Origin: a virus
DNA length: 22,334 nt
Virus record (IMG/VR): IMGVR_UViG_3300024348_000274
Location: 1-22,334 of that record
Reading direction: 5' to 3' (one strand)
How positions within the stretch are numbered: the first letter of the stretch is position 1; each line of letters begins with the position of its first letter. The notes under the pieces are model-generated. The model made no database searches. It saw only the letters and a program-made list of their open reading frames with translations, and was not told where the DNA came from. Below, one piece after another: positions 3,270 through 11,781 of this stretch. A program made the position numbers and the translations under genes.

Positions 3270-3599
3270 TCAGCTATCTACTTTGGCACTAGCACGCCAT
3301 TGGTAGCAACTCCAATACTTTGCTTTCCACTTAGGACCTGGACTATCACATCCATGTCTGGCTCTGAAACTTTTACGTCTTGCTGGATCATCTCTTTTGA
3401 TCTCAGAGTTAGGATCACCAAAAGTGACCTTAACTACGTTGTTCTTGTCGTTCTTTACGTATACTCCGAACTTGCTTTTTGATCCAGTAGGTAAGCGAAA
3501 GGGATCGTTAAGTGTTACCTTACGACCTTGATATTCGCTCTCCTCTGTCACCAGTTCCTCACAGTTACACTCGTCTAAGAATTTCTGAAAAGTTTTCAT
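3270..3599 (-). CDS. DUF6321-like phage protein with N-terminal capsid-targeting-like peptide
   Basis: The 109-residue protein begins MKTFQKFLDE|C, nearly the T4 internal-protein capsid-targeting peptide MKTYQEFIAE. The remainder holds a conserved basic module with FGVYVKN, KVTFGDPNSEIKRDDPARRK, SFRARHGCDSPGPKWKAKYW and SC. This module recurs in many marine T4-like phages and in my memory corresponds to a DUF6321-type domain. The two conserved cysteines and the Trp/Lys-rich end suggest a compact fold, possibly nucleic-acid or metal binding. The ATG at 3599 overlaps the previous gene's TGA, so the two are translationally coupled. I infer packaging into the head and proteolytic removal of the first ten residues. 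The activity is unknown. Confidence 0.7.
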   Translation of the reverse strand: MKTFQKFLDECNCEELVTEESEYQGRKVTLNDPFRLPTGSKSKFGVYVKNDKNNVVKVTFGDPNSEIKRDDPARRKSFRARHGCDSPGPKWKAKYWSCYQWRASAKVDS

Positions 3600-3832
3600 G
3601 ATTCTTCCTCTTCTTTATTCATCATATATCGATGAGCAGTGTTTAGGTAATCAGCCGCTTTGGTAATCTTGCTTTGTACCCATTCTGGCAGATTCTCTTC
3701 GTCATCGAACATGCCAATCATATGCTCCGCATCTGCAAGAACACCCCTAAGTTGAGTTTTTGCCATGCTACCTTCTCGATCATATTCTTCCGAGTTCTTA
3801 GCTTCTGATACGAATGTTCCGAACGTTTTCAT
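3596..3832 (-). CDS. Short helical protein with capsid-targeting-like N-terminus
   Basis: The 78-residue protein starts MKTFGTFVSE|AKNSEE, again a ten-residue peptide ending in Glu that resembles the T4 internal-protein leader. The body has GSMAKTQLRGVLADAEHMIG and LPEWVQSKITKAADYLNTAH, a helical segment that recurs as a small module in marine T4-like phage proteins. The C-terminus is acidic (NKEEEES). AGGAT lies seven bases before the ATG, and the stop overlaps the next gene's start (ATGA). No enzymatic motif is visible. A structural or DNA-associated internal head component is an inference from the leader and neighbours. Confidence 0.65.
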   Translation of the reverse strand: MKTFGTFVSEAKNSEEYDREGSMAKTQLRGVLADAEHMIGMFDDEENLPEWVQSKITKAADYLNTAHRYMMNKEEEES

Positions 3833-3836
3833 CTTA

Positions 3837-4736
3837 TTATCCTAAAAGTTTTCTGAGAGTTGCTGGACCTGCAACACCGTCTGGTGTAAGTCCGTTTTTA
3901 GATTGATACTCTTTGACTGCTCTTTTAGTGCCAGGACCAAAAATGCCGTCTGCTGTTAAGCCTAACTTAGACTGAACTGCTTTAACAGTATCGTTATTAG
4001 AACCTACTGAGATTGTTACATACTCAACAGATCCTGATTTCTTGCTTGACTTCTTTAGAAGTGGTGCTTTACCCGTCATAATTTTCATGGCAGATTCATA
4101 ACGGCTAGTACGATCCTCTAGACCGATATCTCCACCATTAATCTTTTTAGTCATCTTGACAATATCACACTGATCTGCAATAGCGTTTAACTTAGCTGTC
4201 TTCCAGAACCAGCAGGCTGATTCGATAGCGCCTTTCTCTGTTGCTACATATACGGCAGCCTTCTCAGCAGTCATCTTAACTGTCTTACCGAACTTGGTAT
4301 AATTCTCACGACCAGTAAGTTGCTTTAGTCCACGACCTCTGAATAACCAACCGTCACCGGCTTTAGTATTGCCCATCTTGTACTTACGAAACTCGTCCAT
4401 GTAGACGTAGTTAGCAATCATCTCTGGGTTACGTGCATACTCTTTTGCATTACGCTTAGTACCGCCAGTACCGAAATAGCGACCAAATACACGCTTGAGT
4501 GCATCTTCGCTATAGTTTAAATTCTCTTCTAGTGATCTAAAGTTATTTGATTCGTGGGCACACTGTGCAATAAAACCTGCGATTCTCTCAGGAGTATTAA
4601 TCTCGTACTTAGGAAATATTTCCACCATAGCTTTATACCACATGTTAACTTTGGCATCATCATTGCCAGGTATCATCTCAGCCAGCATTTCTTTTGTGAG
4701 TATGCTGTTACTCTTATTATTTTTATTCCAAAACAT
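3837..4736 (-). CDS. GH19-type endolysin with C-terminal peptidoglycan-binding domain
   Basis: The 299-residue protein's N-terminal catalytic domain (about 12-220) matches the glycoside hydrolase 19 (chitinase/lysozyme) endolysins. It has FIAQCAHESNNFRSLEENLNY with the likely catalytic Glu62 and a second acid near 70-71, then GDGWLFRGRGLKQLTGRENY (127-146). The last 55 residues form a PG_binding_1 repeat (VKAVQSKLGLTADGIFGPGT, then YQSKNGLTPDGVAGPATLRK). It probably cuts the glycan backbone of the host cell wall at lysis, or acts as a virion-associated lysin given its head-protein neighbours. There is no signal peptide, so a holin would be needed for release. The TAATG junction with the upstream ParB-like gene indicates translational coupling. 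Confidence 0.88.
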   Translation of the reverse strand: MFWNKNNKSNSILTKEMLAEMIPGNDDAKVNMWYKAMVEIFPKYEINTPERIAGFIAQCAHESNNFRSLEENLNYSEDALKRVFGRYFGTGGTKRNAKEYARNPEMIANYVYMDEFRKYKMGNTKAGDGWLFRGRGLKQLTGRENYTKFGKTVKMTAEKAAVYVATEKGAIESACWFWKTAKLNAIADQCDIVKMTKKINGGDIGLEDRTSRYESAMKIMTGKAPLLKKSSKKSGSVEYVTISVGSNNDTVKAVQSKLGLTADGIFGPGTKRAVKEYQSKNGLTPDGVAGPATLRKLLG

Positions 4737-5167
4737 TAGTCATTTATCCCTTTTGTAAAAGTTTTATCGAAGCTGTAGACTTGCTTCAAGAGTTCTTTCA
4801 CTTTAACATTTGACTGCATAATATCTATGCTGCCGCCAACATTCTTAGCCGCTAACCATCTGTGATGACCATCTATAATATAGTTATCTGAACTAACAAT
4901 GAGTGGCTTAGCCTTACCCAATGTTCTAATCTTAGATATCTTATCGACTATCTTGTCTACATTAAAATCGCTCTGTGTGGCTTTCAACGTATTAGCCTTC
5001 ACAGTCTTTCTTTGAACACGAACACCGTTTTTCTTAAGATGAACAATAAGTTCATCGTAGTCTTTAGACCTAACCTGAGGCATCTTATCTCTCATTATAC
5101 CGAGAGTGTCCTTAGATTGCGGTCTATCTACCTTAAGTTCGGCAATATATGTTCTAAACTTCTTCAT
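4736..5167 (-). CDS. ParB/sulfiredoxin-fold protein with capsid-targeting-like N-terminus
   Basis: The 143-residue protein begins MKKFRTYIAE|LKVD, a near copy of the T4 capsid-targeting peptide with the I-x-E cut site. The second half contains KPLIVSSDNYIIDGHHRWLA (about 88-106). The DGHHRW signature is that of the ParB/Srx-like nuclease domain, seen in chromosome-partition ParB, DNA-binding nucleases and sulfiredoxins. Neither a helix-turn-helix nor a C-terminal dimer domain is present, so a partition role is unlikely. A nuclease or nucleotide-hydrolysing role in the injected host cell is an inference. Start and stop overlap both neighbours (ATGA upstream, TAATG downstream), tying it to the polyprotein and endolysin genes. 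Confidence 0.75.
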   Translation of the reverse strand: MKKFRTYIAELKVDRPQSKDTLGIMRDKMPQVRSKDYDELIVHLKKNGVRVQRKTVKANTLKATQSDFNVDKIVDKISKIRTLGKAKPLIVSSDNYIIDGHHRWLAAKNVGGSIDIMQSNVKVKELLKQVYSFDKTFTKGIND

Positions 5168-9478: not shown

Positions 9479-10708
9479 TTACTTCTGCCAGCCCTTGATA
9501 TACTCTGGTGAGAAGTTAGCGTGGCTAAACTGTAATCTATCTACCAGTTTAACTGCGTTCTTACCCATACGATCAATAGCAACAAAGCCTTCTTGTTCTG
9601 TAACTCTGTATCCATCTTTAGTTTTCAGGAAAGTACCTATAGATTTTGCCTTATCTAGCTTACGTATAACCATCAACTTAGCTTCAACAATGAGATTGTA
9701 TAATTCAAACAGTGCTACGATCTGAGACTTATCGACATTTGAGAAGTATGACATAACTTCCTTTCGTCTTTCGGTTTTCTTTTCTTTGCCCTTATCTGAC
9801 TTTAGTTTATCAATCTCTTTTTGATAATATGTGTATGTCCAGTCCACTAGACCACTAACGAACTTACTTGGATCTTTGATCTTTTCACCTGCTCGTACTT
9901 GTACGTTCAAGTATGTTTTAACTCTTGTAAGCAACTCTTCGTTCTCTGTTATGCCGTCAAACGTTGCTTTGTTTACTTTGTTGAATTGCTTGCCAGCGGC
10001 GGACAGTAGTAGAGTAACCGCATCTGTCTCTGCCTGTGTCATTGTGGCATTACCTGTCACATCTTTGTAGACCGCATCTACTGACCAGACTGATTTCGAT
10101 CCTTTGAGATTGCTTGCAATCTTCTCTCCAAAAGACGCTGACATTGACTCAAAAGATTTTCCTCTGTAGTTAGTGTGCCAAACCACACCGATCTCGGATC
10201 TGAGGATTTCAGAAGCAAGTTTGCTTTTCGCTGGTATAGCGTAAACAATCGTATTAGGATGGAAAGTAATATGCGGTTCACCATCAATCTGTACCTTTTT
10301 AATATCTTTCTTCGCATAGAGGAAATCACCTTGTATCACTCCTTTAATATTCATAGCTGGCAAATGTTTCAATGCCAGGTTCATTTTTATATTCAAATCT
10401 CCACTAGTATCAGCGTCAACATCCGCTTTAGTCTTATAGACTTTAGGATTCTTGTTGAAGATGCCCTTCTTTGCAACAAAGAACTTACCGTCAGATGGAT
10501 CGATACCTGCAAAAACTGCTGGTGCACCATCCCACTTTACTGTTACGTTAACAGGAGCTTTAGACTTGCCCGCTAACATATCACGCAAAGATCGTAGGTA
10601 ATCTATTGACTGTCTTGCACCATCGACACCTGAATTTAACAGATTGTCCTCGAGATGCTCCATGTGAGTGTTTTTATCTTCTGTGATATATGTGCGTAAA
10701 CTTTTCAT
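9479..10708 (-). CDS. DUF6267-like protein with ligase-type nucleotidyltransferase motifs and capsid-targeting-like N-terminus
   Basis: The 409-residue protein begins MKSLRTYITE|DKNTHMEHLE. The first ten residues match the T4 capsid-targeting pattern with an I-x-E cut site. It resembles the DUF6267 family of marine T4-like phages, including WDGAPAVFAGIDPSDGKFFV, KKGIFNKNPKVYKT and IKGVIQGDFLY. VKWDGAP (57-63) looks like nucleotidyltransferase motif I (KxDG) of DNA/RNA ligases and capping enzymes. EGFV (373-376) and KLVDR (387-391) fall where motifs IV and V would lie, and GVIQGDF (123-129) could serve as motif III, although its spacing is early. Ligase-fold assignment is therefore plausible, not proven. 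Its ATG overlaps the stop of the nuclease-like gene (ATGA), so the two form one unit behind the late promoter at 11827-11834. Confidence 0.75.
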   Translation of the reverse strand: MKSLRTYITEDKNTHMEHLEDNLLNSGVDGARQSIDYLRSLRDMLAGKSKAPVNVTVKWDGAPAVFAGIDPSDGKFFVAKKGIFNKNPKVYKTKADVDADTSGDLNIKMNLALKHLPAMNIKGVIQGDFLYAKKDIKKVQIDGEPHITFHPNTIVYAIPAKSKLASEILRSEIGVVWHTNYRGKSFESMSASFGEKIASNLKGSKSVWSVDAVYKDVTGNATMTQAETDAVTLLLSAAGKQFNKVNKATFDGITENEELLTRVKTYLNVQVRAGEKIKDPSKFVSGLVDWTYTYYQKEIDKLKSDKGKEKKTERRKEVMSYFSNVDKSQIVALFELYNLIVEAKLMVIRKLDKAKSIGTFLKTKDGYRVTEQEGFVAIDRMGKNAVKLVDRLQFSHANFSPEYIKGWQK

Positions 10709-11781
10709 AGTCTTATCTTTAATCCTACTCGTGTAGCGCCACCAGAGGCACCACCATATGTTGCTAGTACGAATGATTTAAACTTTGGCAGTACTTCTGC
10801 TTTTAGAACGTTGCCAGCTTTTCCACCACCCACAAAAAATATTTCAAACGTATCATTAGCTCTGTTGTGTATAACGAAGTAGTCATCTCCACCATCTTTA
10901 AAGTGGTCTAAGATAACCTGTCTAAAGTGCGCTAATGCCACACCGTCTGTTATAGCAAACTCTTTAGGCAGTTTACCTGACTTGATAACTCCATCATCGC
11001 CTGCTAGACCAATAGAAGAATCACGTGAATTGAAAAAGTCTATAAGTCCTACAAAGGTAGAAGGATACTTCTCTCTTTTCATAAGAGCGCCAACGTTACC
11101 CTCTTTGACTTTTAAGTCTCTGATATAAACATCTGCAATATCCTGTATGATCTCAATTTTACGTCCAGATCGTTTAACTGACTTATCGAAGAATGTAATA
11201 GGAGCTGATCTGTTGTTAGTTCCTTTGATCTCGAATTGAGTCTTCTTCTTGGCAATAGTCATAACTAGATCGGGAATAGTTGATCCTGGTCTAGCTGTCT
11301 TGAATTCTGTTTCTACTTCGATGCCTCGTTTGAAGGCAAGGTCTTTGACCTCTACTGCAACCATATCTTGAGTTTTTGATCCTGCTCCTACTCGACCCTG
11401 CGCTCCACCTCCTGGCTTCACGATAGAACTGATAGCAACATATCCGTCTGGTCTTTGATCAAATCCTTTGAGTGAGACAGGTGCGAGAGTTGTACGTCTA
11501 GTAATACCGAACTCTGTCGATCTATGTAATGTAGCAGGAATAGTGAAGTGAACTTTTTCACCTTTCTTCAACTGCTTTACAATCTTGCCTTGATCTGAGT
11601 ACAGTGGAGCAGGCTTTTCCATAGGAAAGCCTTCTTTGAACTTATATCCATTCAACGTTTCTGGAGCATATGTTGTACGCTCACCAGCACCAGTAAATTC
11701 TTTGTTCTTGCCAGGTCCCGAAGGAAAGTTTTTAGGTGAAAATGTAGCCATCTCTGTGAGCCACCCTCTAAATTTTATCAT
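10705..11781 (-). CDS. PD-(D/E)XK nuclease-like protein with capsid-targeting-like N-terminus
   Basis: The 358-residue protein starts MIKFRGWLTE|MATFSPKNFP, matching the capsid-targeting form with an L-x-E cut site. Residues about 55-122 look like a small beta-barrel (SH3-like) segment. Residues 155-187 contain EVETEFKTARPGSTIPDLVM and then TQFEIKG. The arrangement PD (170-171), twelve residues, then E-I-K (184-186), with acidic residues at 157/159, is the core of the PD-(D/E)XK nuclease fold. The rest is a mixed alpha/beta region ending in Gly-rich TYGGASGGATRVGLKIRL. I infer a DNA-cutting or DNA-processing enzyme packaged in the head. A different restriction-endonuclease-like role is possible. 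Only a weak ribosome-binding site is seen. Confidence 0.6.
   Translation of the reverse strand: MIKFRGWLTEMATFSPKNFPSGPGKNKEFTGAGERTTYAPETLNGYKFKEGFPMEKPAPLYSDQGKIVKQLKKGEKVHFTIPATLHRSTEFGITRRTTLAPVSLKGFDQRPDGYVAISSIVKPGGGAQGRVGAGSKTQDMVAVEVKDLAFKRGIEVETEFKTARPGSTIPDLVMTIAKKKTQFEIKGTNNRSAPITFFDKSVKRSGRKIEIIQDIADVYIRDLKVKEGNVGALMKREKYPSTFVGLIDFFNSRDSSIGLAGDDGVIKSGKLPKEFAITDGVALAHFRQVILDHFKDGGDDYFVIHNRANDTFEIFFVGGGKAGNVLKAEVLPKFKSFVLATYGGASGGATRVGLKIRL

Follow-up and report, generated by a model that had tools for sequence, protein, structure and literature searches.

A candidate PD-(D/E)XK nuclease with a T4-type head leader in a hypervariable gene slot of T4-like phages

We analysed a viral DNA record of 22,334 bases (IMG/VR record IMGVR_UViG_3300024348_000274, positions 1 to 22,334; hereafter the window) and in it one open reading frame (ORF), whose 358-amino-acid product we read as a candidate nuclease packaged in the phage head. 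The window belongs to a marine T4-like phage. Its minus strand encodes gp43 DNA polymerase, UvsX and gp41-type proteins, and the polymerase is nearest to those of the Kyanoviridae, with a top identity of 53% (phage C48C1). The nuclease ORF is located 3' of gp41 and three small ORFs and overlaps the DUF6267 ORF by 4 nucleotides; the features are listed in Table 1. Relatives were found at 41 distinct loci among viral contigs. One of them (L053:2988-4050) is broken by stop codons past ~200 amino acids and may be a damaged or mis-sequenced copy. Searches of Pfam, PHROGs, NCBIfam, PADLOC and PDB sequences with the 358-amino-acid protein gave no match, tblastn against named phages found no homologue, and two scans that covered genomes of bacteria and archaea were negative as well.

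Table 1. Features of the window, with the candidate nuclease gene first and neighbouring genes below (a slash in a leader marks the predicted cut)
Feature	Positions	Strand	Basis
Candidate packaged-nuclease precursor, 358 amino acids; ATG at 11781, stop codon 10705-10707	10708..11781	(-)	ORF call; 41 related viral-contig loci
Putative capsid-targeting leader MIKFRGWLTE, residues 1-10; predicted gp21 cut after E10 (LTE/M)	11752..11781	(-)	pattern test and T4 rule
SH3-like domain (predicted), residues 38-124	11410..11670	(-)	VIA-align; missing from core-only relative L052
PD-(D/E)XK nuclease domain (predicted), residues 130-358	10708..11394	(-)	model and structure comparison
Predicted catalytic D171 (in P170-D171)	11269..11271	(-)	invariant across relatives
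E184-I185-K186 (ExK)	11224..11232	(-)	invariant across relatives
T4-type late promoter TATAAATA, 45 nucleotides 5' of the nuclease start codon	11827..11834	(-)	sequence match
DUF6267 protein, leader MKSLRTYITE/DKNTH, K-x-D-G motif (KWDG)	9479..10708	(-)	PF19782, E 2.8e-111; leader pattern
Cytidylyltransferase/NMNAT-type protein, 991 amino acids	5164..8139	(-)	profile match; homologue is an S-SCSM1 virion protein
ParB-like protein, leader MKKFRTYIAE/	4736..5167	(-)	domain match and leader pattern
Small protein, leader MKTFGTFVSE/ (VSE, not strictly L/I-X-E)	3596..3832	(-)	leader pattern
Small protein, leader MKTFQKFLDE/	3270..3599	(-)	leader pattern; phrog_7595

The first-pass annotation of this DNA had proposed a PD...ExK core with D171, E184 and K186 as its key residues. 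The numbering is correct: STIPDLVMTIAKKKTQFEIKG spans residues 167-187, and the motif itself occupies residues 170-186. D171, E184 and K186, together with Q182, F183, I185 and G187, are identical in all 30 aligned family members, and P170 is kept in 28 of the 30. The three key residues are also invariant in a 33-row alignment (A4) whose members share 35-98% identity with the window protein. Judged by these alignments, the PD...ExK motif is far more than a chance occurrence.

An AlphaFold2 model built from 33 diverse relatives reached a mean predicted local distance difference test score (pLDDT) of 85.3, compared with 51 for an earlier model from 10 close sequences. In the structure-aligned list, residues 130-358 matched HhaI with a Z of 7.5 (161 residues aligned, 3.9 Å), followed by I-Ssp6803I (6.9), HinP1I (6.6, 173 aligned), Hjc (6.0) and MspI (5.7). 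SPARDA nucleases, DpnI, PvuII and EcoRV also align with this region, and RecU resolvase is found, besides Hjc, among the structural neighbours. The matches listed for residues 130-358 are PD-(D/E)XK enzymes throughout, in a list that does not exclude families absent from it. Foldseek alone gave no PDB match with E below 0.001; its best viral match was a 375-amino-acid protein of cyanophage S-T4 (E 1.2e-7). The core elements of the model (helix 133-151 and strands 156-162, 172-176 and 179-188) fit an alpha-beta-beta-beta core, and the two-residue-turn hairpin between the last two strands would set D171 opposite E184, with K186 on the strand of E184. The proposed fold was supported by structure prediction and fold comparison, and the domain is most likely a PD-(D/E)XK nuclease fold. 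Over residues 38-124 VIA-align gave Z values of 5-6.5 to SH3-type domains such as those of LytB and SlpA; a core-only relative (L052:7983-8624) is without this domain and marks a domain border near residue 128.

It was reported previously that T4 gp21 cuts after L/I-X-E and that residues 4 and 7 of the capsid-targeting sequence (CTS) serve targeting, residues 8 and 10 processing (PMC9026906). F4, W7, L8 and E10 of the MIKFRGWLTE leader agree with these rules. A strict leader pattern derived from the T4 consensus matched 5 of the 27 window genes, against a shuffle mean of 0.12 and a maximum of 3 in 5,000 shuffles; a looser pattern was dropped since it matched 25% of background genes. Within the nuclease family the strict pattern is found in 19 of 33 rows, and most of the others have a longer leader or none. 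The leaders vary (MKTFRGYLAE/VATF, MSNLNHYVRQLRPRTESYTPHVDRIQDLFINE/ASF, MLGLKQFINKNTLSE/ASF), while the junction keeps a Glu-ended site, mostly [LI]xE. Relatives without a leader begin with Met (MATF) exactly at the leader junction. In the window protein the predicted cut is directly followed by Met11, the first residue of MATF, which looks like an old start codon with a leader set in front of it. The window is a fragment without gp21; gp21 (PF03420) is present in the close relatives G001, G003 and G004, and gp23 also occurs in close relatives.

The octamer TATAAATA, the T4 late consensus, occurs 9 times in the window compared with 1.36 expected. In most relatives TATAAATA or a one-base variant lies 23-56 nucleotides 5' of the nuclease gene. 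A late promoter was present within 120 nucleotides upstream of 27 of 31 nuclease-family slot genes, as opposed to 0 of 139 gp41, 0 of 98 uvsX and 0 of 33 gp43 genes. Most genes of several other families found at the same position also have one at this distance, but not those of groups C1, C5 and C9. The promoter sequence points to late expression of the nuclease gene. Since late promoters stand at the slot genes and not at gp41, uvsX or gp43, a late transcription unit seems to begin within the replication region.

Many related phages share the gene order UvsX, gp41, a variable slot gene, DUF6267 and cytidylyltransferase. Clustering of the gene 5' of DUF6267 gave 22 groups in 109 loci (L105-L182 among the loci with this slot); these are counts of loci and not of phages, since the same contig was in some cases fetched more than once, in overlapping pieces. 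In most of the larger groups the majority of members carry a leader. In profile comparison the nuclease-family core matched C1 (E 3.7e-5) and C2 (E 2.3e-5), at probabilities of only 44-51%, and C1 matched C2 at E 1.2e-14; no clear similarity was seen among the other slot groups. In several of these a D precedes ExK, SxK or SHK, and by motif alone they look like candidate nucleases. Clearly not nucleases are the HAD phosphatase-like proteins (L116, L133) and a zeta-toxin-like kinase (L178); the L172 protein is HD-domain-like by motif only. At L202, on the same contig as L041, members of the nuclease and C1 families stand in tandem before DUF6267. Judged by these clusters, the slot is hypervariable: its families are numerous, dissimilar to one another and for the most part leader-bearing.

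The virion proteome of cyanophage S-SCSM1, determined by mass spectrometry, comprises 45 proteins (PMC9602691). It includes SSCSM1_89 to _93 and _97, which GenBank labels as virion proteins. SSCSM1_90 lies at the equivalent place in S-SCSM1; our initial expectation that it is DUF6267 was rejected by sequence comparison, which identified it as a homologue of slot protein L146 (25% identity over 300 amino acids, E 4e-18), with weaker similarity to L154, L151 and L150. SSCSM1_91 is homologous to the window cytidylyltransferase. The proteome supports virion packaging for the slot and says nothing direct about the window nuclease itself.

We consider it quite likely that the gene product is a DNA endonuclease with the PD-(D/E)XK fold, packed in the phage head by means of its T4-type leader and delivered with the viral DNA. 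Transcription would be late, from the TATAAATA promoter, despite the position of the gene among early replication genes. Residues 1-10 would act as a T4-type CTS and bring the precursor into the prohead core, where the gp21 protease would cut after LTE10 to leave a mature enzyme of residues 11-358 (the SH3-like domain plus the nuclease). The mature enzyme would stay in the head beside the genome and leave it together with the viral DNA when the phage next infects a cell; there it would cut DNA, most likely that of the host or of a rival. The phage may be protected because its genome lacks the enzyme's own site, perhaps CGCG. The first-pass annotation had suggested such a virion-packaged nuclease with a capsid-targeting-like leader, and both halves of the suggestion gained support: the fold from the structural comparison, and packaging from the leader with its gp21-type site, the late promoter, gp21 and gp23 in relatives, and the presence of SSCSM1_90 in virions.

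Several observations weigh against this proposal. The fold is without an independent sequence match in the five databases searched, and all Z-scores are below 8, the level at which Z alone convinces. Relative L043 has no leader although its contig has gp21, and L026, L054 and L055 have none, yet keep the late promoter. As evidence against packaging the leaderless relatives give a mixed picture, because the L043 contig has gp21 and the others lie on fragments. The virion evidence concerns another slot family in another phage, and the S-SCSM1 authors noted that non-structural proteins may have stayed in suspension after CsCl purification (PMC9602691).

We also examined short palindromes. CGCG is absent from the window, where 19 are expected. 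Most nuclease-bearing contigs are without it, and the pooled close group has 1 compared with 170 expected. The close group shows no avoidance of GCGC, the site of HhaI and HinP1I (observed/expected ratio 0.92). CGCG is missing from 22 of 30 testable nuclease-family loci and 37 of 43 C1 loci, versus 10 of 63 C2 loci and 0 of 35 others, and the loci that avoid it group together on the nuclease tree (4 changes versus 7.3 when shuffled). This near-absence suggests self-avoidance. Extending that reading, the packaged enzyme might be a methyltransferase-free restriction nuclease with CGCG specificity, to which the phage is immune through its purged CGCG sites and which is injected to destroy unprotected host or rival DNA, marine T4-like phages swapping such nucleases at one hypervariable late slot; we put this forward tentatively and regard it as rather doubtful. 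The chances appear evenly balanced that CGCG was instead lost because the hosts restrict it, the nuclease having another specificity or none; this explanation competes only with self-avoidance and not with packaging. It agrees with the retention of CGCG in 8 of the 30 nuclease-family loci and with the DUF6267 tree, on which CGCG loss tracks phage lineage and includes one contig with a C2 slot gene (L281); the uneven distribution among slot families and the clustering on the nuclease tree argue against it. Phylogenetically independent pairs split about 3 to 0-1, which is not significant. CGCG loss was rejected as proof of nuclease specificity, since lineage explains it about equally well. Other palindromes are strongly depleted as well: TTAA occurs 15 times versus 179 expected in G003 (L063-L065), and GATC 68 times versus 566 expected in G018 (L069-L076).

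Alternatively, the nuclease could do its work late in infection in the cell that makes the phage, where it would resolve branched DNA ahead of packaging or trim the DNA of the host; the leader would then only dock it in the prohead, and delivery would have no function. The late promoter, its retention in the leaderless relatives and the resolvases Hjc and RecU among the structural neighbours would fit this role, which we nevertheless consider improbable: a conserved packaging step would hardly need mutually dissimilar slot families, most of these families keep their leaders, and mature virions contain a homologue of a slot family. Least probable of all, the nuclease would process or protect the genome that the phage itself brings in, perhaps by repair together with DUF6267, whose ORF overlaps that of the nuclease, which likewise bears a leader and which shows a nucleotidyltransferase-like K-x-D-G motif. 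Against this, DUF6267 is conserved next to a slot gene that keeps changing, and site-specific restriction enzymes are among the nearest folds.

Head delivery of the nuclease would resemble that of the T4 proteins IPI, IPII, IPIII and Alt, with which the gene shares a short N-terminal leader ending in L/I-X-E (10-19-residue propeptides in the T4 class), a late promoter, gp21 in the group and, presumably, co-packaging with DNA. They differ in activity: IPI inhibits restriction and Alt ADP-ribosylates host proteins, whereas the window passenger is a predicted nuclease. The type II restriction endonucleases HhaI, HinP1I and MspI, among the best structural matches, have no sequence match to it, and the window protein adds an SH3-like domain and a head leader. 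As fusions to IPIII or to its CTS, EcoRI and staphylococcal nuclease are taken into T4 heads (PMC9026906); there a nuclease was brought into the head by an engineered leader, here the arrangement would be natural. Polyvalent phage proteins are likewise injected or packaged, some with predicted nuclease domains (PMC5512222), but they are large multidomain chains with ParB-like DNase domains and no other DNase domains, whereas the window protein is smaller, has a predicted restriction-endonuclease fold and a T4-type leader. No Pfam domain was recognised in it. Slot proteins of the cyanophages S-T4 (AXQ70537.1) and S-CAM7 ('type-2 restriction enzyme CviJI'), and phrog_13937, likewise come from the position 3' of gp41; they are of another sequence family and have SHK instead of ExK, and the two cyanophage proteins are leaderless. 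The S-T4 slot gene encodes 375 amino acids and may be that of the accession matched in structure; profile comparison with AXQ70537 gave a weak match in the SH3-like region alone (probability 16.5).

Among the neighbouring genes, the ParB-like protein is probably another packaged protein and a second candidate packaged nuclease. DUF6267 mirrors the leader pattern of the nuclease family: the window leader ends in Glu before KNTHxEH, and the S-8S56 version (L100) is leaderless and starts with MAKNTHLEH. The cytidylyltransferase-type protein contains several similar ESF(D/E)xxF-like segments, e.g., YDESFESFL, VDESFEKLF and INESFDEMF.

For the proteins that T4-like phages inject from their heads, few functions are known. 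Should the CGCG reading be true, the enzyme would be a restriction enzyme whose owner is protected by site loss and not by methylation. The cultured phages Melnitz (QZI94969, leader MQGFKTFLSE/AK), HTVC008M (AGE60460, leader ending LSE/AR) and S-SCSM1 offer direct test systems. A natural leader-targeted nuclease in a variable, leader-bearing slot would, if confirmed, mean that the delivery of enzymes from the head is widespread among marine phages and evolves fast.
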